NCBI GenBank assembly: GCA_028033615.1
Contig: JAOFDG010000015.1
Location: 1-38,251 of the forward strand
Length of the DNA stretch: 38,251 nucleotides
Source: Verrucomicrobiales bacterium
Lineage (GTDB): Bacteria; Verrucomicrobiota; Verrucomicrobiia; Verrucomicrobiales; DEV007
Direction of reading: 5' to 3'
The notes under the pieces were generated by a model that saw only the letters and a list, made by a program, of their open reading frames with translations, made no database searches and had not been told where the DNA came from. Shown here one piece after another: positions 5,398 through 32,154 of the stretch (positions within the stretch are counted from its first letter, which is position 1; the number at the start of each line of letters is the position of its first letter). A program made the position numbers and the translations under genes.

Positions 5398-7074
5398 ATG
5401 ACCGAAAAAGAAGATACTCTAACAAAAGAAAAAGAACTACTTAGCTCTGTCGAAAATAAAGGAACCGGTGCAAAACTAAAGGCATACACTAAACTTTGTG
5501 GTCCAGGGTGGTTGCAAAGCGCTATAACTTTGGGAGGAGGTTCATTGATAGGTGCTCTATCATTAGGAGCAATTGGAGGAACAAAATTCATGTGGGTTCA
5601 GCCTCTAGCAATGGTTCTTGGTATCATAATGCTTAGTGCTATAGCGTATGTTACTCTCTCCACAGGCCAAAGACCTTTTAAGGCAATAAACAACCATGTT
5701 TCACCTGTCCTGGGCTGGGGTTGGCTAGGTGCAACTATGCTAGCAAATATTGTATGGTGCCTACCACAATTTAATCTAGCCTATGGTGCGATTGCCCAGA
5801 ATCTCGTTCCAGATCTACCAGATGCCGGAAAAGAGGGAAGCATGATCCCAATACTTATTGTCTCATTCTGTGTTTTAACCATCGCAACCTTCGTTGTCTT
5901 CTCATATGGCAAGGGCAGTAAGGGAGTTCTTTTATTTGAGAAAACACTAAAAGTCTTCGTTGGCCTCATCGTGCTCTCATTTATAGGAGTCATCATAAAG
6001 ATGTCTTTATCAGAGGATTCTCTTCTCGATTGGGGAGCAGTTCTCGCTGGTCTCATACCAGATTTCGGAGCCCTTTTTAAACCTTCAGAAAGCTTTCAAG
6101 CTGTCATCAATCAACTAGATCAAGAAAAAGCGACAGAATGGACAAATAAGATCGTTAGTAAACAGAGAGATTCAATCATCACTGCATTTGGCACGGCTGT
6201 CGGCATTAATATGACTTTTCTTCTACCTTATTCGATGCTTAGAAGAAAGTGGGGCAAAGAACATAGAGGACTAGCAATTTTTGACCTCTCAACTGGACTG
6301 TTTATTCCTTTTGTTATTGCAACAGGTTGCCTAGTCATTGCGACAGCAACACAATTTCATGCAAATCCTGATAACTATGTCTTCAGTAAGAGCTCTTCAA
6401 TCGTAGAAACTGCGAAGGGACAATTAGGTGAAAAAGCATTTAACGAATTAGGAAACGATAAAAAGAGCAAACTAAAGTCCATCTACATTGCAATGCCAAA
6501 AGAAAAGCGCGCTAATGCAGAATTGGAATTAATGACTGCAAGACCGAGCCAACTTGAATTGGCTAGTTCTTTAGAACCTTTAACCGGAAAAATTATCTCT
6601 CAATGGGTTTTTGGATTTGGTGTGCTTGCCATGGCTGTTTCAACAGTTGTCATCTTAATGTTAATTAATGGCTTTGCTATATGTGAGGCATTTGATCGGC
6701 CTGATGATGAAAAACTTCGAAGAATAGGATGCCTAATTGCAGGATGCATTGGCTTTTTTGGACCCATCGTATGGGGTAAGCTAAGTGCGTATCTTGTTAT
6801 TCCAACCTCTGTATTTGGATTCACACTTCTTCCTATTGCTTACATAACATTCCTGCTATTAATGAATTCGAAAAGCCTTCTTGGAGACAAAAAGCCAACA
6901 GGTAGTGCTAAATTAATATGGAATATTCTTATGGTTATAGCCACCCTAGTTGCCACTCTTGGAGCGAGCTGGGCGTCCTATGGAAAGATTGGATGGACAG
7001 GCCCAGGGCTAATCTTAGCGTTTGGAATTTTAGCTCTTATTTTTAGATCGAAGTCAACAAAGGCTACCGAGTAA
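5398..7074 (+). CDS. Nramp-fold transporter lacking the canonical metal site
   Basis: Polytopic membrane protein of 558 aa recognisable as Nramp (SLC11) related. The TM1 region GPGWLQSAITLGGGSLIG (35-52) aligns with the classical GPGFLVAVGYMDPGN segment. The metal-binding DPGN is replaced by GGGS (46-49). In the TM6 region (about 260-280) the usual MPH motif is LLP followed by YS. The Asp, Asn and Met side chains that bind manganese or iron in known Nramps are therefore absent. An insert of about 80 mostly polar residues (roughly 320-400) sits between later helices. Automatic annotation would say divalent metal transporter; the substrate is more likely different. It lies between a sulfatase and a DUF6807 gene, with a gap of only 2 bp to the latter. 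The ATG start gives a cytoplasmic tail of about 30 charged residues. Confidence 0.8.
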   Translation: MTEKEDTLTKEKELLSSVENKGTGAKLKAYTKLCGPGWLQSAITLGGGSLIGALSLGAIGGTKFMWVQPLAMVLGIIMLSAIAYVTLSTGQRPFKAINNHVSPVLGWGWLGATMLANIVWCLPQFNLAYGAIAQNLVPDLPDAGKEGSMIPILIVSFCVLTIATFVVFSYGKGSKGVLLFEKTLKVFVGLIVLSFIGVIIKMSLSEDSLLDWGAVLAGLIPDFGALFKPSESFQAVINQLDQEKATEWTNKIVSKQRDSIITAFGTAVGINMTFLLPYSMLRRKWGKEHRGLAIFDLSTGLFIPFVIATGCLVIATATQFHANPDNYVFSKSSSIVETAKGQLGEKAFNELGNDKKSKLKSIYIAMPKEKRANAELELMTARPSQLELASSLEPLTGKIISQWVFGFGVLAMAVSTVVILMLINGFAICEAFDRPDDEKLRRIGCLIAGCIGFFGPIVWGKLSAYLVIPTSVFGFTLLPIAYITFLLLMNSKSLLGDKKPTGSAKLIWNILMVIATLVATLGASWASYGKIGWTGPGLILAFGILALIFRSKSTKATE

Positions 7075-8001: not shown

Positions 8002-10734
8002 TTACTGAAGTTTAAGAATTAGTTTACTGTCAGAGGCGGTCCATATACGTAAAACACTATCCTCTCCACCTGCTGCTATATGAGAACCATCATGACTCGC
8101 TCCAGAGACATGAATAAATGTATCTGAGCCAAGCAAAGGTTTATTGGAAAGCCTAACAGATTTATCTCCACTGCTCGAAAGCAAATTTCCGGTTAAACCC
8201 AAATAATCTATGGACCCTACTGCTTTTGAATGCCCTTTTACCGTTTCTTTTTGAGTCCCCTTTTCATAATCCCAAATTTTCACAACATTGTCTGCCCCTG
8301 CACTTGCAAGCAAAAACCCGTCAGCGCTCCAAGTAACATCAAGCACGTGATTAGTATGACCTTCAAAACTCTTTTGAAGGTCACCTCCATCAACTTTGAA
8401 AACCTTTACAAATCGATCCGTTGCAGAAGTGGCAATGGATTGACCCGATGGACTAAACACCAAACCTGAAATTGTATCACTATGCGAATCCACATTTGAT
8501 GAGACCAATTCACTAGTGCTGACATTCCAAACTTTCAGTTCACCACTTCTAGATGGAACTCCACCGCCGGTAGCTAAAAGTTTTCCATCGGGGCTAAAAC
8601 CTAAGGCATTAACTCGATCAATAATCGTTTTTGGATCATCTATATTTCCTATCATTCGGTCCATAACCCAGACATGCTCATTGTGAAGCCCTTTTAGCCA
8701 TTTATTACCGTTAACTAGGGAAAATTTATTCTCCTTTAAACCGATCAAATTAATTGAATCATCACCAATCTCTATAAAAGCAGAAGGCTTTCCACTTTCA
8801 ACTTCCCATGAATATATTATTCCATCATTTGATCCCGCAAATACTTGAGCTCCATCCTCAGAAAAAATAACACTCCCTAGTTGAGATTTAGATTCATCAA
8901 AAAGCTTGGCAGAAGCTATATGAATTTGAGTTGCATCAGCTAATTTCTTCTCAGCTTGAGCAAGTAATTGCTTTGTATTTTTATCTGCATCATTTGCTCT
9001 ATTAAGAAACCTTTCGGCTATTTCTCTGCTTCTTATAGCTTCTGTACTTTTCCGTTCAGCGTCTTTAAATTCTTTATCTTTTGCATTAGCCGCCTCTGTT
9101 GCTTTTTTTAATTGGTCTTGAGCAGCTTTAAGGTCTTCATCTTTTGCTTCCTCTTTGGTTTTGACATCAGCTTCAGCTTTGGTTTTTGCATCATTTGATG
9201 TTACGAGCTCAATTTTCTTTTTATCTAATTCAGCCTTTGCGTTCTTTTCAGCTTCTTTAGCTTTATCTAAGGCAACGGTATCATCCTTGATCTTTTTCTC
9301 AGATGTAGCGACTTGCTTCTTTCTTTCTTCAAGAACTTTAGCCGACATATTTTTTTTCTGTTCATCTGATTTTGCTTGTCTGTCGAGAATCCATTTATTG
9401 TTACTTTCAAACTTCAACTTTCCATCATTGATATTCCAAACTTTGATTTTTTCATTTCCTTCGACTGCGGCAATCAATTTAAAGTCATCAGTAATAGAAA
9501 TATCATTTATACCAGCTCCATTATTAATTTCTCTTGTTTTACTAATCTTAGTTCCTTCAACTCTCCAAAACTTGATGACGTTATCACTGCCAAATGAAAC
9601 AATTTCATTTCCACCACTGCCATATGCTTTTAATCGACTAACATTTTCGGAATGAGCTTTCATTTCACCGACAACTTTAAAACTATCATCTAAGGATAGA
9701 ATTTTAATCATTCCATCTGCGGTTCCTATGGCTACCAAATTTACATTTTCAATGTATTCAATAATTTGTGCCTGAAACTGTAAATTGGTAGAAACCTTGG
9801 GTTCTTTTTCATTGATATCCAAAAAAGCCAAAAAACCATCTGAACCTATAAAGGAATATGTGTTTTCACTGACAAAGGAAATGGATTTAATTTCCGAAGA
9901 ATGTTTATAAATCAATTGCAGTTGTTTCGTATCAGGACTGTAGAAATAAATTTCACCCTGTTCATTGCCATGAAGACTTTTGTTTGTCTTTTTATCAACA
10001 GCAAAAGAACTTTGATTTGACCCCTTTAATTCAAACTTAAATAATTCCTTAGGCGGTAATTTTTTCCAGAGTTTTACATTTCTAAAACCCGCTGAAGCAA
10101 GAGTACCTTGACTTGAAAAAGCCATACTCCCAACAATATCGATATGAGCAGAGGCTCCAAGCTTTTCAAGACTTGGATCAATAAGACGCCCCAAGTCTTT
10201 GCCACTGGGCAAATGATAAATATTAATATTATTTCCACGACCAGCCGCTGCAAATTGATTGTCTGGCGATATTGCTACAGAATATATGGCATTTACTTTG
10301 TCGCTCATTTTAGCAAAGTTAATTTTCTTATTTTCTGCACTAACTCCATCGTCTATCGCCCCCTGGTCTATCCATAACCTTAACAAACCTAATTCCTCAG
10401 GCGTTAAATTTGGTGCATTCGATTTGTTTTTAGGTGGAGGCATGAACGATTCCTCCTGATGCGCAGCTAATAAGAACACAAGACTTTCATCAGACTTTCC
10501 AGGAACTATGACATCAAATCCATCAGCACCTTCCATCATATAAGAAACACTTTCCAAGTTCAATTTACCTTTAGCCTTTGTCGAATTATGACATGCGATA
10601 CAACTCCTCTTAAAAACTGGCTCAATATCTTTTGCGTAACTAACTTTTCTAGATGAATCAATATCATCTATTGGCAAAGGTTCACCGAGAATAGTAGTAA
10701 CTGAAACCAAATAAATAATCGCGATGTATTTCAT
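8002..10734 (-). CDS. PSCyt1-type heme domain / WD40 propeller protein with coiled-coil insert
   Basis: Exported protein of 910 aa. A signal peptide (1-17) leads to a planctomycete-type cytochrome C domain with the heme motif CIACH at 45-49, continuing to about residue 125 (GLLRLWIDQGA). After this come WD40-like repeats from about 145 to 450, then a long Lys/Glu/Ala-rich coiled coil at about 455-615, then a second WD40 block to the C-terminus with clear units such as ATSATDRFVKVF and SAGADNVVKIWD. The heme motif suggests electron transfer and the propeller suggests scaffolding; neither is proven. It lies 17 bp after the PPC gene and 16 bp before the DUF6807 gene. The adjacent PPC protein also carries a coiled coil, so the two may bind each other. 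Confidence 0.88.
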   Translation of the reverse strand: MKYIAIIYLVSVTTILGEPLPIDDIDSSRKVSYAKDIEPVFKRSCIACHNSTKAKGKLNLESVSYMMEGADGFDVIVPGKSDESLVFLLAAHQEESFMPPPKNKSNAPNLTPEELGLLRLWIDQGAIDDGVSAENKKINFAKMSDKVNAIYSVAISPDNQFAAAGRGNNINIYHLPSGKDLGRLIDPSLEKLGASAHIDIVGSMAFSSQGTLASAGFRNVKLWKKLPPKELFKFELKGSNQSSFAVDKKTNKSLHGNEQGEIYFYSPDTKQLQLIYKHSSEIKSISFVSENTYSFIGSDGFLAFLDINEKEPKVSTNLQFQAQIIEYIENVNLVAIGTADGMIKILSLDDSFKVVGEMKAHSENVSRLKAYGSGGNEIVSFGSDNVIKFWRVEGTKISKTREINNGAGINDISITDDFKLIAAVEGNEKIKVWNINDGKLKFESNNKWILDRQAKSDEQKKNMSAKVLEERKKQVATSEKKIKDDTVALDKAKEAEKNAKAELDKKKIELVTSNDAKTKAEADVKTKEEAKDEDLKAAQDQLKKATEAANAKDKEFKDAERKSTEAIRSREIAERFLNRANDADKNTKQLLAQAEKKLADATQIHIASAKLFDESKSQLGSVIFSEDGAQVFAGSNDGIIYSWEVESGKPSAFIEIGDDSINLIGLKENKFSLVNGNKWLKGLHNEHVWVMDRMIGNIDDPKTIIDRVNALGFSPDGKLLATGGGVPSRSGELKVWNVSTSELVSSNVDSHSDTISGLVFSPSGQSIATSATDRFVKVFKVDGGDLQKSFEGHTNHVLDVTWSADGFLLASAGADNVVKIWDYEKGTQKETVKGHSKAVGSIDYLGLTGNLLSSSGDKSVRLSNKPLLGSDTFIHVSGASHDGSHIAAGGEDSVLRIWTASDSKLILKLQ

Positions 10735-26676: not shown

Positions 26677-26694
26677 GAGTTGAGACCAAACGAA

Positions 26695-27435
26695 ATGCAT
26701 ATCCATATAGAAAAAACCAAGGAAGACCTTGGAAGAAAAGCCTCTACAATCGGGGCTGAAGCAATAAAAAAAGCTATTTCAGAAAATGGAATAGCCAATA
26801 TAATTTTGGCTACTGGAGCCTCTCAATTTGAAATGCTTCATAAACTTTCAAAGGAGACAGACATCAACTGGTCCAAGGTTAATGGATTCCATCTTGATGA
26901 ATACATTGGCATTCCAATAAGTCACCCAGCCTCATTTAGATTATATCTTTGGAAAAGATTTATCTCCCAACTACCAACTCCCATGAATTCATTCCATTTC
27001 ATTAACACCGAAGAAGACCCTCAAGGGGAATGTGAAAAAATTGGTGAAATTATCAGTTCATTAATCATCGATGTTGCTTTTATTGGCATTGGTGAAAATG
27101 CCCATGTCGCATTTAATGATCCCCCTGCCGATTTTAAAATTAGCGCCCCTTATATAATAGTGAATCTCGATGATGATTGTCGAAATCAACAATTAGGAGA
27201 GGGTTGGTTCAAAACTATCGAAGAAGTTCCAAAACAAGCAGTTTCCATGTCTGTTACTCAAATAATGAAGAGCCGAAAGATCATATGTAGTGTTCCTGAT
27301 GAGCGCAAAGCTAATGCTGTCAAAAATTCTTTAACCCATCCAGTTACACCAAATTACCCCGCATCAATTTTAAATGAACATAAAGACAGTCATCTCTTTT
27401 TAGACAAACAATCTAGTTCTCTCTTGAATAATTAA
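26695..27435 (+). CDS. nagB: Glucosamine-6-phosphate deaminase/isomerase-like protein (NagB-like)
   Basis: Member of the glucosamine-6-phosphate isomerase/6-phosphogluconolactonase family, 246 aa from the ATG at 26695 (a TTG at 26680 would add five residues). The expected reaction is glucosamine-6-phosphate to fructose-6-phosphate plus ammonia, in the cytoplasm. GASQ (41-44) fits the phosphate loop, LDEY (67-70) the region of E. coli D72, and GIGENAHVAFNDP (131-143) the catalytic loop. Against E. coli NagB, D141 is Asn (N135), H143 is kept (H137) and E148 is Asp (D142). The ENxH variant also occurs in other family members, so this may be a subfamily trait or a change of substrate. First gene of a four-gene operon; the next starts 11 bp downstream. 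Confidence 0.85.
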   Translation: MHIHIEKTKEDLGRKASTIGAEAIKKAISENGIANIILATGASQFEMLHKLSKETDINWSKVNGFHLDEYIGIPISHPASFRLYLWKRFISQLPTPMNSFHFINTEEDPQGECEKIGEIISSLIIDVAFIGIGENAHVAFNDPPADFKISAPYIIVNLDDDCRNQQLGEGWFKTIEEVPKQAVSMSVTQIMKSRKIICSVPDERKANAVKNSLTHPVTPNYPASILNEHKDSHLFLDKQSSSLLNN

Positions 27436-27446
27436 TTTAATACTAA

Positions 27447-28538
27447 ATGCATAATAAAAAAATAGGAATTGGATTTGTCGGAGCCGGATGGATGGGTTCA
27501 ACTTTAATTCAAAGAATCATTAAATCCGATGACACTGAACTTTTAGCACTACATCAAAGATCACAAAAAAGAGCCGAAGAAACCTTAAAAAATTTAGGTT
27601 TAGAAAAATCTATTTATACTGATAGTTACGATGATATCCTCTCTAATTCTAAAATTGATGCTGTGTTCATTTGCAGTCCGAACTCTTTACATGGTCAACA
27701 ATCAATCAAAGCATTAAAAGCAGGCAAACACATTTTTTGTGAAAAGCCATGCGCTACAAATTACGATGAATACTTAATGCAAATTAAGTTGGCAAAACAA
27801 AATCCTGATCTTGTTACTTATGTAAATTATCTTATGAATTTCGATTCAATGGAGAAGAGAATCTGTAATATGGCAAAAAATAATGAATTTGGTGAAATTA
27901 CTCAAATCCAAGTCAACTACAGACACCCTATCAATATTGAAGGTGACAAAAAATGGAAACTAAGCGCTGAAATTATGGGTGATGCAATTGGAATGGGCAT
28001 AATTCATTCCTTGTCGGTTATGCTCAATATCATGAAAGCGAACAATGCAAGACCAAAGACAGTCTACGCAACAAGAAACATTAACAACACTCGGGGATTT
28101 GAGATAGAACCAATCTATAACATCCTGATTAATTTTGATAATGGAAGCACTGGATTTTGTTTTGGTAATGTTGATGTCGCCAACGGATATGACGCTTATC
28201 ACAATATTCATGGCACGAAAGGCGGATTAATATTTGATAGTTATTTGCCGAGACCTCAGAAAGTTAGATTTTGGTCAGACTTAAAAACTGATGGAGCTTG
28301 GATCTCACCGCTCGACACTAAAAATTGCCCAGAAGAATTTCAATGGCCTAAAGATACAACAACACCAGATAGTGGTGATGTAGTTAACCACCAGACGGGA
28401 GCATGTGTTCGTCATTTCTTAGACTGCATCCATAATAAAACACAATCATTTCTTAGTTTTGAGAACTCCTCAATGACTGCCGATGTGGGATGGGCCGCCA
28501 TAAGGTCCTGTGAATCAGGAATACCCGAAATCATCTAA
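27447..28538 (+). CDS. Gfo/Idh/MocA-family NAD(P)-dependent oxidoreductase, cytoplasmic
   Basis: Oxidoreductase of 363 aa with an N-terminal Rossmann motif GFVGAGWMG (9-17) and the family's EKP signature (99-101, in HIFCEKPCATN). A C-terminal alpha/beta domain for substrate binding follows. No signal peptide, so it acts in the cytoplasm. Family members oxidise or epimerise sugars, inositols or sugar phosphates. Its position between NagB-like and NagA-like genes (11 bp before, 1 bp after with the preferred nagA start) points to an amino sugar or its phosphate as substrate (inference). Such an enzyme is not part of the classical GlcNAc pathway. Confidence 0.9.
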   Translation: MHNKKIGIGFVGAGWMGSTLIQRIIKSDDTELLALHQRSQKRAEETLKNLGLEKSIYTDSYDDILSNSKIDAVFICSPNSLHGQQSIKALKAGKHIFCEKPCATNYDEYLMQIKLAKQNPDLVTYVNYLMNFDSMEKRICNMAKNNEFGEITQIQVNYRHPINIEGDKKWKLSAEIMGDAIGMGIIHSLSVMLNIMKANNARPKTVYATRNINNTRGFEIEPIYNILINFDNGSTGFCFGNVDVANGYDAYHNIHGTKGGLIFDSYLPRPQKVRFWSDLKTDGAWISPLDTKNCPEEFQWPKDTTTPDSGDVVNHQTGACVRHFLDCIHNKTQSFLSFENSSMTADVGWAAIRSCESGIPEII

Positions 28539-28539
28539 C

Positions 28540-29448
28540 GTGAGTTTCTTCGACCTTCAGGTTAACGGTTATGCGGGAGCTGACTTTAACTCTAACTCAT
28601 TAACTGAGGAGTCCCTTCATCACGCATGCTTAGCTCTAAGTGAAGATGGAGTCGAACAAATACTGGCAACAATGATCACGGACTCAATTGATTTGATGTG
28701 TCAAAGAATAAGAACGATTAATAAATTCAGAAGCCTAAATCCGATATGTGAGAAAATGATCTCAGGGTTTCACATTGAAGGCCCTTTCTTAAATGAATCA
28801 CCGGGCTACATCGGAGCTCATCCATCAAGTTATGCAATAATGGGCAACATTGATGATACTAAACGGCTACTAGATTCTGCCAATGGACTCACAAAAATTG
28901 TCACATTAGCACCTGAAAGAGATCCTAATTACAAAGTAACATCAATGCTTAGTGGATTGGGAATTACTGTTTCCGCAGGCCACTGCAATCCAACCAAAGA
29001 GGAAATAGAAGGAGCAATCGATAATGGTTTAACCATGTTTACTCACCTCGGAAATGGATGCCCCATGACGCTGGATCGTCACGACAATATTATCCAAAGA
29101 ATATTAAATGTTAGTGATCGCATGTGGATAACTTTCATCGCCGATGGAGTTCATATACCTTTTTATACATTAAAAAATTATTTAAAAATCATCCCCCCAG
29201 AAAATGCCATTGCTGTTACGGACTCTATTTCAGCCGCACGGATGAAACCGGGAAAATACACTTTAGGAGATTGGGATATTCTTATTGGAAAAGACGGCAT
29301 AGCCATGTCACCAGACAGGTCCCATTTGATTGGGTCCACACTGACTGCGCCAAAAATTATAGATAATCTTAAAAATCATTTGAATATGAATGCTGCACAG
29401 ATAGAACAAATCACACAGACCAACCCACGTGCGGCTGTTCAATCCTAG
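28540..29448 (+). CDS. nagA: N-acetylglucosamine-6-phosphate deacetylase-like, N-terminally short
   Basis: Amidohydrolase of about 302 aa resembling NagA, expected to deacetylate an N-acetyl-hexosamine-6-phosphate. The first metal/catalytic features are kept: HIEGPF (78-83, E80 matching E. coli E131), SAGHCN (H148), THLGNG (H169), ADGVH (H205) and VTDS (D228). The protein begins at the barrel strand FFDLQVNGYAG; the amino-terminal part of the small beta domain found in 380-aa NagAs is absent. Two GTG starts exist: 28510 (overlapping the oxidoreductase by 29 bp) and 28540 (1 bp after its stop). I prefer 28540 for spacing, but either is possible. The transporter gene follows after 13 bp. Confidence 0.86.
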   Translation: MSFFDLQVNGYAGADFNSNSLTEESLHHACLALSEDGVEQILATMITDSIDLMCQRIRTINKFRSLNPICEKMISGFHIEGPFLNESPGYIGAHPSSYAIMGNIDDTKRLLDSANGLTKIVTLAPERDPNYKVTSMLSGLGITVSAGHCNPTKEEIEGAIDNGLTMFTHLGNGCPMTLDRHDNIIQRILNVSDRMWITFIADGVHIPFYTLKNYLKIIPPENAIAVTDSISAARMKPGKYTLGDWDILIGKDGIAMSPDRSHLIGSTLTAPKIIDNLKNHLNMNAAQIEQITQTNPRAAVQS

Positions 29449-29461
29449 AAAAATTTGATTA

Positions 29462-30706
29462 ATGAATAAGCGCCTTCAAAGCATTGGACCAGCTATCATC
29501 GTAGCGGCAGTTGTCTGCGGACCTGGGAGTATCCTTTCCGCATCAAAGACAGGTGCCGATTTCGGTTATTCAATGACATGGGTCATTGCACTAGCAGTAT
29601 TCTTAATGATCGGAAGCTCAGCTCTTTCTGCAAGGTTAGGGGTATTCATGGAAGGAACACCTTGTGACGAAATTGCAAAGAGCTTTGGCAGGGTTACCGC
29701 AATATTTGTTGGTTTGACAGTTTTCCTGATCGCTGCCGGATTTCAGACATCAAACAACATGGCTATTTTTAAAGCAATAGCTCCATACAGTGACAATCAT
29801 CACTCAGTATTTATACGGAATCACCTCCCAACCACGGCTTTAATTGCGCTAAATTCTTTTTTGTTATTAGTCGTTTACCGATCAAAATCTTTATACAGGC
29901 CAGTTGAAAAATTGATGAAAGTCTTAGTTGGACTCATGGTTATTGCTTTCATATTTAACTGCATCATCAGCAAACCTTCATTAATCGAGTCAATTAAAGG
30001 CCTCAAACCGAGCCTACCGGAAAATAAAGATCAATTATCTGTATTTGCACTTATCGCTACTACGTTCTCAATTGCTGGCGCCTTTTATCAAGCATACCTA
30101 GTGAGGGACCGTGGCTGGAGATCTAATAACGTCAAAGAAACTTTTGTAGATACAGTAATTGGTATCACAACTCTAGGCCTGATAACACTCGTCATAATGT
30201 TAACCGCCGCCTCTACATTGTCAGGAAAAGCCATCGAACTCGAAACTGTAACTGATGTGGCCATTCAAATGGAGAACCTTTTTGGAAGTTGGGCGGGCAT
30301 AATCTTCACTCTCGGGATTTTCGCTGGGGCCCTCAGTTCGTTTCTAATTAATGCAATGATTGGAGGACGTCTCCTTGCGGACGGTTTTGGGAAAGGAAAT
30401 AGAATCGATTCCAAATGGTCAAAGCACTGCACCGTATTGGCTTTGCTGGCAGGTCTCCTAGGAGCCTTTTTTGCTATTATAGATCCAGATTCAAAAAATA
30501 GTATAGACCCCATTATAATCGCACAAGCATCTACCATGTTGGGAGGGCCTACACTAGCATTAGCTCTTTTATTTTTAGGAATTAAAATCAATCAAAGAGA
30601 TCAACAAAAGCCACGAATATCTAAATGGATGCTGTGGTCAGTCACTATGGGTTTAATAGTGACACTCGTCCTCGCTTTTAAAACTTTTGGAAAGTTATTT
30701 GGTTAA
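29462..30706 (+). CDS. Nramp-fold transporter of the amino-sugar operon, metal ligands lost
   Basis: Polytopic inner-membrane protein of 414 aa with about 11 membrane segments and Nramp-type start GPAIIVAAVVCGPGSILSAS. The DPGN metal motif of TM1 is GPGS (20-23). In the TM6 region, ATTFSIAGAFYQAYLVRDRG, the MPH motif is gone. The Asp, Asn and Met ligands of true Nramps are thus all missing. As the last gene of the NagB-like/Gfo-Idh/NagA-like operon, 13 bp after the deacetylase, it most likely brings in an amino sugar or related organic solute (inference). A remaining metal or proton role cannot be excluded. No kinase or PTS component is in the operon, so phosphorylation must come from elsewhere. 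It is 101 bp from the convergent Gfo/Idh gene. Confidence 0.82.
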   Translation: MNKRLQSIGPAIIVAAVVCGPGSILSASKTGADFGYSMTWVIALAVFLMIGSSALSARLGVFMEGTPCDEIAKSFGRVTAIFVGLTVFLIAAGFQTSNNMAIFKAIAPYSDNHHSVFIRNHLPTTALIALNSFLLLVVYRSKSLYRPVEKLMKVLVGLMVIAFIFNCIISKPSLIESIKGLKPSLPENKDQLSVFALIATTFSIAGAFYQAYLVRDRGWRSNNVKETFVDTVIGITTLGLITLVIMLTAASTLSGKAIELETVTDVAIQMENLFGSWAGIIFTLGIFAGALSSFLINAMIGGRLLADGFGKGNRIDSKWSKHCTVLALLAGLLGAFFAIIDPDSKNSIDPIIIAQASTMLGGPTLALALLFLGIKINQRDQQKPRISKWMLWSVTMGLIVTLVLAFKTFGKLFG

Positions 30707-30807: not shown

Positions 30808-32154
30808 TTAGATGATAGCCTTTGGCTTCCAACCTTCCCGATAATCCCTGCCAACCTGAAGATCTGCCTTCACATTGTTAGTAACCTTCAGCTTTTCAGT
30901 ATCCCAATCAAGTTTTTCTCCTGGGAAAAGTGTAGCAAGGCAACCAAGTAAAACGGTCTCAGTCAATGGGCCGGAGTAGTCTTCAAAGTTAGCTGAAGGT
31001 TTTTTACCACTAGCACCTCGAGCAGATTCAACGAATTCCATATAATGATCACGAGGCTCAAGCTTTGGATATTTCAACCCTTCAAATTTCTGCTTTGGAT
31101 ACAAAGTTGGTGTCGACATATGTGGCGCAAGTAATACTCCATCGGTGCCTATTATAATACTACCCTGGCTAGGTACTTTACCCCCAACAAGGTCAGCTAC
31201 TTCTTTTGGTGGCCTTGCATCACCGTCATACCACGTAACAGATACATTACCTTCTTGAGTGAATTGGGTTGAAGGGAAAACGTAATCAATATTGGCATTA
31301 ATCGCCCAATTATGCTCATTGGAAGCAGGACCATGTGAAACAACGGATAGAGGAGAAGTAAGGCCTAATGATCGATACCAACCACTAAAAATATGACACC
31401 CCATATCACCAAAAGTACCTGTACCAAAATCTCGTCTTTTACGCCAATTTCCTGGGTGATAATATCCAGATATATAGGGGCGTGATTTGGCAACACCTAA
31501 CCAAAGGTCCCAATCAAATCCCTCCGGAATTTCATCCTCTTTTTGAGGAACTGGCCCCATATCTCCCCACTTTTTACCTGAGAAAGAATGAACTCTTGTT
31601 ACTTTACCTATTGCTCCCTGCTGAACCAAACTAACAACTAACCTTTCCGTAAATGCAGACGATATCTGAATTCCCATCTGCGTCATTAGTTTCTTATTCT
31701 TTGCCATCTCTGACATTGCTCGACATTCCTTAATATTATGAGCCAAAGGCTTCTGCCCATAACAATGCTTTCCTAGGTCCATAGCAGCCAAACCTATAGG
31801 ACCATGCATATGATCAGGAGTTGAAACGTTAACAGAGTCAATATTCTTGTCCTCTTTTTCTAATAGCTCTCTCCAATCCTGATAAAATTTAGCTTTCGGA
31901 AAACGTTTCCTAATGCTTTCCGCTCTCTTTAAGTCAATATCTGCAACGGCCACTAAATCAAAATGTTTACTGCGTGCAAGGGACCCTACGTCAGCGCCCG
32001 CCATCCCATTTGCTCCGAAACTTGCATGCCTTAAACGTTCGCTAGGAGGATTAGCTCGAAGACCTGAAGCTATAAAGGGCATAGAAATAGCCGATATTGT
32101 TGTGCTTTTAATAAATTTTCGGCGAGAACTACTATTAGAGTTTGTTAGAGACAT
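30808..32154 (-). CDS. Tat-exported Gfo/Idh/MocA-family oxidoreductase
   Basis: Oxidoreductase of 448 aa with a twin-arginine leader (SRRKFIK, 10-16, followed by a short hydrophobic stretch), so it is probably exported already folded with its cofactor. The Rossmann part has FGANGMAGADVG (46-57), and the family's EKP site is QKP (134-136), the form usual in exported members. The C-terminal domain is long, with ATWxxDGD-like and DHYMEFVESARG elements. Exported Gfo/Idh proteins with tightly bound NAD(P) are thought to act on sugars, for example by oxidation or isomerisation. It is divergent (184 bp) from the HEAT/PQQ/FucU operon. This is a different subfamily from the cytoplasmic enzyme at 27447-28538. 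Confidence 0.9.
   Translation of the reverse strand: MSLTNSNSSSRRKFIKSTTISAISMPFIASGLRANPPSERLRHASFGANGMAGADVGSLARSKHFDLVAVADIDLKRAESIRKRFPKAKFYQDWRELLEKEDKNIDSVNVSTPDHMHGPIGLAAMDLGKHCYGQKPLAHNIKECRAMSEMAKNKKLMTQMGIQISSAFTERLVVSLVQQGAIGKVTRVHSFSGKKWGDMGPVPQKEDEIPEGFDWDLWLGVAKSRPYISGYYHPGNWRKRRDFGTGTFGDMGCHIFSGWYRSLGLTSPLSVVSHGPASNEHNWAINANIDYVFPSTQFTQEGNVSVTWYDGDARPPKEVADLVGGKVPSQGSIIIGTDGVLLAPHMSTPTLYPKQKFEGLKYPKLEPRDHYMEFVESARGASGKKPSANFEDYSGPLTETVLLGCLATLFPGEKLDWDTEKLKVTNNVKADLQVGRDYREGWKPKAII

Follow-up and report, generated by a model that had tools for sequence, protein, structure and literature searches.

What does a protein with the fold of the Nramp metal transporters carry when the residues known to bind the metal are gone and its gene closes an operon of amino-sugar-type enzymes? 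The question is raised by a gene in the 38,251-nucleotide stretch of Verrucomicrobiales DNA analysed here (contig JAOFDG010000015.1; the window), which belongs to an incomplete genome (1.65 Mb, 54% complete) whose closest named relatives are Verrucomicrobiales MAGs with Nramp proteins 85-97% identical to the window carrier. From the loss of all known metal-binding residues, together with the sugar-processing neighbours, the most likely role of this carrier is, with fair confidence, the import of a sugar-type organic solute and not of a divalent metal; that it transports at all, what it moves, in which direction and with which driving ion are all things that we infer. For the window itself, an amino sugar or an N-acetyl amino-sugar derivative is probably the solute, and is the leading case. 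The protein would act as an inner-membrane secondary carrier of the Nramp (LeuT-type) fold, and the NagB-like, Gfo/Idh and NagA-like enzymes co-transcribed with it would then use the imported solute (table 1).

Table 1. Operon, carrier motifs and flanking gene, in window coordinates.
Feature	Position	Strand	Basis or remark
NagB-like protein, aminosugar-phosphate deaminase/isomerase family	26680..27435	+	PF01182 E=1.2e-18; likely ATG start 26695
Gfo/Idh/MocA oxidoreductase	27447..28538	+	PF01408 E=8.1e-26
NagA-like deacetylase, short N-terminus, start codon uncertain	28510..29448	+	TIGR00221 E=8.5e-47
Nramp-related carrier, GPGS clade, 414 aa	29462..30706	+	PF01566, AlphaFold model, DraNramp fold match
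TM1 GPGS (residues 20-23), where canonical is DPGN	29519..29530	+	alignments; TM1 helix break in model
TM3 FQTSNN (residues 94-99)	29741..29758	+	Q95, N98 at canonical proton-path Asp, Glu positions
TM6 TTFSIA (residues 200-205), where canonical is ATVMPH	30059..30076	+	alignments; model helix break 202-203
TM8 NAMIGG (residues 297-302)	30350..30367	+	N297, G301, G302 invariant in aligned members
Gfo/Idh-type glycoside 3-dehydrogenase-like protein, convergent, twin-Arg-like start	30808..32154	-	PF01408 E=6.2e-16

The carrier is a member of the Nramp superfamily with a LeuT-type fold by both profile and structure. The ORF matches the PF01566 Nramp profile with E=3.8e-51 (174.7 bits, cut-off 29.8) and passes the NCBIfam model 'Nramp family divalent metal transporter' (76.5 bits, cut-off 50), so that an automatic label would be that of a metal transporter. 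Such mislabelling had been predicted in the initial annotation and, indeed, all annotated relatives from cultured organisms that were examined bear the NCBIfam name, and every one of the haloarchaeal and Neorhizobium carriers described below is annotated as a metal transporter. The AlphaFold2 model, the structural check that had been proposed, was built from 52 aligned relatives (mean pLDDT 89.5, pTM 0.89); its helices break at residues 19-20 (TM1) and 202-203 (TM6), and its top PDB match in Foldseek is DraNramp (8e60; TM 0.83, 20% identity), followed by EleNRMT and BfraNramp. With the canonical Nramp/SLC11/MntH proteins it shares the fold, the topology, the unwound TM1 and TM6 and PF01566 membership; it differs from them in the absence of DPGN, MPH and the TM3 proton acids, in its low identity to DraNramp, in its position in a separate clade and in its sugar-gene context.

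The TM1 sequence of the carrier is VVCGPGSILSASKTGADFGY and that of TM6 is ATTFSIAGAFYQ. Alignments place G20 and S23 at the canonical Asp and Asn positions of TM1, and S203-I204-A205 at the M-P-H positions of TM6, which bears out the initial annotation on the two motif losses that it had listed. In the numbering of DraNramp, D56 and N59 correspond to G20 and S23; A227, M230, H232 and H237 to T200, S203, A205 and Q210; and E124, D131 and E134, in the proton path, to F88, Q95 and N98. The losses thus extend beyond that first list to A227, H237 and the three proton-path acids, and the aligned TM1/TM3/TM6 core retains not a single acidic residue. The replacement residues are near-invariant among members 31-87% identical to the window carrier: in 52 aligned PVC/Hydrogenedentota members, no variation is found at G20, G22 and S23, at F94, Q95, S97, N98 and N99 of TM3, or, from TM6 on, at T200, T201, S203, A205, A207, N297, G301 and G302. 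To judge from these sequences, the core looks like a new site under strong selection rather than an old site decaying. The central site between TM1, TM3, TM6 and TM8, which is the metal site in Nramps, would here be rebuilt with conserved uncharged polar residues (S23, Q95, N98, N99, T200, T201, S203 and N297), and would suit hydrogen bonds to a neutral polar molecule.

The nearest solved relative by sequence is the Mg2+ transporter EleNRMT (7qia; E=1.3e-13), which has in common with the window carrier a (G/A)TT stretch in TM6 and the absence of the proton pathway. The NRMT motif consists of DxxG in TM1 and TxxA/T in TM6 (PMC8806188), whereas the window carrier has GxxS, without Asp, and TxxS; NRMTs retain the TM1 Asp (DAGG), while the GPGS clade has Gly and sugar operons. 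Those NRMT genes that were studied as M-box-regulated are located with Mg riboswitches (PMC4072509). That the window protein itself still imports divalent cations through a remodelled site (e.g. for a hydrated ion, as in NRMT), and so feeds operon metalloenzymes like NagA, appears improbable. Its PF01566 fold and its relation to EleNRMT would fit such a role, as would the case of Bacillus subtilis YcsG (MntG), which is encoded in a 5-oxoproline operon and has been argued to be a Mn importer, cellular Mn reportedly rising with it (PMC10448178); a place in an organic operon is thus compatible with metal transport. Ten other GPGS genomes are, furthermore, without a canonical-strength Nramp match, but PF01566 genes are lacking altogether from 101 of 145 Verrucomicrobiota genomes, and the missing canonical Nramp therefore tells little. 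Against metal import stand the core devoid of acidic residues, where NRMTs keep their TM1 Asp, and the operon partners other than nagA, most of which (Gfo/Idh, epimerase, DHDPS-like) belong to families not known as metal enzymes.

GPGS is not a private mutation of the window gene, since it is present in every clade sequence covering TM1 except L057, which has GAGS. A scan of GTDB genomes yielded 68 loci with the clade core, at 29-97% identity to the window carrier, in Verrucomicrobiota, Planctomycetota, Hydrogenedentota and one contig that binning assigns to Caldiserica, as well as eight more remote Nramp-related loci whose motif is GAGD. Haloarchaeal proteins with GPGS, FQ(A/V)GN(N/T) and TTFSIAAA were found by tblastn of plasmids, as was a relative from Neorhizobium whose motif is GPGN; in IMG/VR viral contigs, no relative could be confirmed. 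In the tree (FastTree LG+gamma, SH-like supports), the PVC/Hydrogenedentota GPGS set of 58 tips has support 1.0 and forms one clade with the five haloarchaea (support 1.0), the canonical DPGN Nramps make up their own separate clade (support 1.0), and the placement of the Neorhizobium protein is weak (support 0.21). The near-invariant signature of the clade is GPGS, FQxxNN and TTFSxA. GPGS is one among several TM1 Gly motifs, as other Verrucomicrobiota Nramp-related proteins vary at this position (GTGS, GAGS, GGGS, GGSH and GASD). One locus, L005 (G224:C1 3238985-3243058), was rejected as a functional member, its gene having lost the N-terminus and acquired an internal stop; this decayed GPGS-type gene is flanked by a TIM-barrel isomerase and a sulfatase, the same as the intact L043, and its decay suggests a dispensable gene.

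The tight operon described in the initial annotation holds by its coordinates, the carrier gene being the last and the next gene lying on the opposite strand. Loci of Verrucomicrobiales type conserve the gene order nagB-like, Gfo/Idh, nagA-like and Nramp: nagA is directly upstream of the carrier gene in nine of them (the window and L034-L041), nagB is found in six of the nine, two of the remaining three ending at a contig edge, and the convergent glycoside 3-dehydrogenase-like gene (284 bits against NF058561, under the cut-off of 750) is kept next to the operon. In a Phycisphaerae genome (L061), a nagB-like gene (8096-8926), a nagA-like gene (8923-9912) and a GPGS gene (from 9914) overlap or abut; its Nramp protein, 33-36% identical to the window carrier, nests among Phycisphaerales sequences (node support 0.999), and the linkage of nag genes and carrier thus occurs in two branches, because these loci and the Verrucomicrobiales ones fall in different parts of the tree. 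Many Planctomycetota loci run in the order Gfo/Idh, Nramp, NAD-epimerase-like, DHDPS-like and esterase-like hydrolase, an enolase-superfamily gene coming next in one locus with the epimerase-DHDPS-like-esterase set, and in other clade loci sulfatases and a TIM barrel of xylose-isomerase-like type are found. About one-third of the clade loci, chiefly of Hydrogenedentota type, are without a carbohydrate neighbour.

A same-strand carbohydrate gene within 400 bp was counted at 43 of 69 clade loci, at none of 22 canonical loci and at 2 of 18 other Nramp-related ones, the families counted having been picked out of the clade's own neighbourhoods and the control neighbourhoods being from Verrucomicrobiota only. 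Fisher tests give 4e-8 for the clade against the canonical loci and 1e-4 against the other Nramp-related ones, values that are too optimistic because the loci are related sequences; since length-based gene calling was unreliable in the high-GC control loci, tblastn searches of the DNA were used to score the context. The immediate neighbours (n=91) comprise 19 Gfo/Idh, 11 epimerase-like and 5 esterase-like genes. Overall, the phylogeny and neighbour table that the initial annotation had suggested return a single clade whose neighbours are mostly sugar-processing families, and metal-homeostasis families, which it had named as evidence to the contrary, are absent among the 25 commonest of the 62 neighbour families matched at clade loci. 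It is very unlikely that the carrier is a sensor or ion-leak protein, associated with these genes through gene-dense catabolic islands: Gfo/Idh and sulfatase genes are numerous in PVC genomes (Gfo/Idh genes are about 20 in the 1.65 Mb of the source genome) and some neighbours differ from member to member, as such an origin would have it, but the tight spacing and overlaps inside the operon recur in separate lineages and the core residues are strongly conserved.

The haloarchaeal plasmids, looked at only after the bacterial neighbour pattern had emerged, have a Gfo/Idh gene no more than two genes from the carrier in five out of five cases, adjoining it in Natrononativus, Halalkaliarchaeum and Halomontanus and lying two genes off in Natronococcus and Haladaptatus; in several of these loci a sulfatase, a heparinase II/III or a sugar isomerase is close by. 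The gene of the Neorhizobium sister protein follows genes for a DHDPS-family protein and a LacI regulator, and a LysR regulator occupies its other flank.

Which solute the window carrier would import depends on how its partner enzymes are read. The NagA-like protein keeps the metal and catalytic residues and the equivalents of R227 and H251 of E. coli NagA, but scores 159.9 bits against TIGR00221, under the equivalog cut-off of 225.65. The NagB-like protein reaches 133.8 bits against TIGR00502 (equivalog cut-off 236.9), lacks R172, the substrate-phosphate Arg of E. coli NagB, LGEGWF standing in place of the NSRFF of classical NagB, and has Asp at the E148 position; the E. coli reference sequence used for this comparison agreed at the known catalytic positions. 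These changes possibly reflect a different substrate. Seven NagB-like proteins were compared, the Phycisphaerae one included, and all are near-identical in the variant region around R172 and E148. In the 54% of the genome searched, there is one copy each of the NagA-like and NagB-like genes; no kinase gene lies within the window operon, and two ROK-family genes are found elsewhere in the source genome. The PDB relatives of the operon Gfo/Idh protein are glucose-fructose oxidoreductase and inositol dehydrogenase. Given a NagB-like protein without R172 and with Asp for E148, next to a NagA-like protein with its residues kept, the amino sugar is a candidate only.

It is possible, although the less probable course, that the carrier takes up a sugar acid, a hydroxy acid or an amide, and that the nag-like enzymes of the window act on another substrate; this overlaps the main reading and puts in dispute the amino-sugar part alone. 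The altered NagB-like residues and the two sub-threshold equivalog scores would agree with it, as would the epimerase, DHDPS-like, enolase-superfamily and esterase genes of the sister operons, which typify sugar-acid routes, and the related GPGT proteins of Haloferax and Haloarcula, whose genes abut those for hydantoinase/oxoprolinase; however, nagB and nagA are joined to the carrier in two separate branches and the NagA-like protein retains its phosphate and catalytic residues. The amino sugar proposed as solute in the initial annotation fits the nagB/nagA-linked members only, the rest of the clade pointing to other sugars or sugar acids.

Uptake of an organic solute by such a fold has a precedent in Corynebacterium glutamicum PxpT, an Nramp-family protein whose deletion abolishes growth on 5-oxoproline (PMC13274462). 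PxpT and YcsG resemble the window carrier as Nramp-fold proteins inside an organic catabolic operon, and the YcsG model 9a52 matches the carrier model with TM 0.78 (Foldseek); their partners, however, are PxpABC, unlike the nagB-like, Gfo/Idh and nagA-like genes of the window. An organic substrate for the Nramp fold would thus not be a first, as PxpT/YcsG is a published candidate for 5-oxoproline uptake. Earlier, an Nramp outgroup had been suggested to link carriers of non-metal substrates with metal carriers (PMC4072509), and a 2026 preprint describes a highly diverse 'Nramp-related' set, paraphyletic to canonical Nramps, in which the motifs for metal and protons are missing, and names G-motif groups that are mostly uncharacterised (PMC12873925). 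The window carrier belongs to this class, being a PF01566 member without the canonical TM1, TM6 and TM3 residues, but, MntG aside, no substrate or neighbourhood is named there for the G-motif groups. The new substrate class suggested in the initial annotation was, therefore, anticipated in principle by PxpT/YcsG and the Nramp-related class; what appears undescribed in the open-licence literature searched is the cross-domain GPGS clade with its carbohydrate context, and no proposal of a sugar-type substrate for an Nramp was found there, as judged on titles and abstracts.

In the tree, where the comparison with PxpT/YcsG is covered by GPGT proteins encoded next to hydantoinase/oxoprolinase genes, these proteins branch away from the GPGS clade. 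Two Nramp genes of Haloferax and Haloarcula, L157 5989-7206 (GPGT-type) and L159 4929-6137 (related), overlap by one base or abut such genes, and these proteins may be another candidate group of organic-substrate Nramps.

For the clade as a whole, we lean slightly towards a cross-domain family of carbohydrate importers on the Nramp fold, in PVC bacteria, Hydrogenedentota, haloarchaea and probably the proteobacterial sister, all annotated as metal transporters, in which the operon would set the sugar of each subclade: an amino sugar where nagBA is present, a sugar acid or keto-sugar where the operon is of the Gfo/Idh-epimerase-aldolase kind. If this holds, the Nramp fold carries carbohydrates besides metals. 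This would have a bearing on whether metal transport is the ancestral or a derived state in a family whose Nramp-related proteins a recent phylogeny makes paraphyletic to canonical Nramps (PMC12873925), and would correct a 'divalent metal transporter' label hiding a possible route of sugar uptake in marine Verrucomicrobiota, Planctomycetota and haloarchaea. Since cultured haloarchaea carry clade members on their plasmids, this reading is open to testing.

The window encodes a second, distant Nramp-related protein (5398-7074, + strand, 558 aa) with GGGS in TM1, whose gene lies beside a sulfatase gene and one for a DUF6807 protein. In L143, the gene of a comparable GGGS protein is followed directly downstream by Gfo/Idh and TIM-barrel genes, and two Nramp-related proteins of about 790 aa (L135 and L136), with GTGS in TM1 and a long C-terminal extension, have sulfatases nearby.
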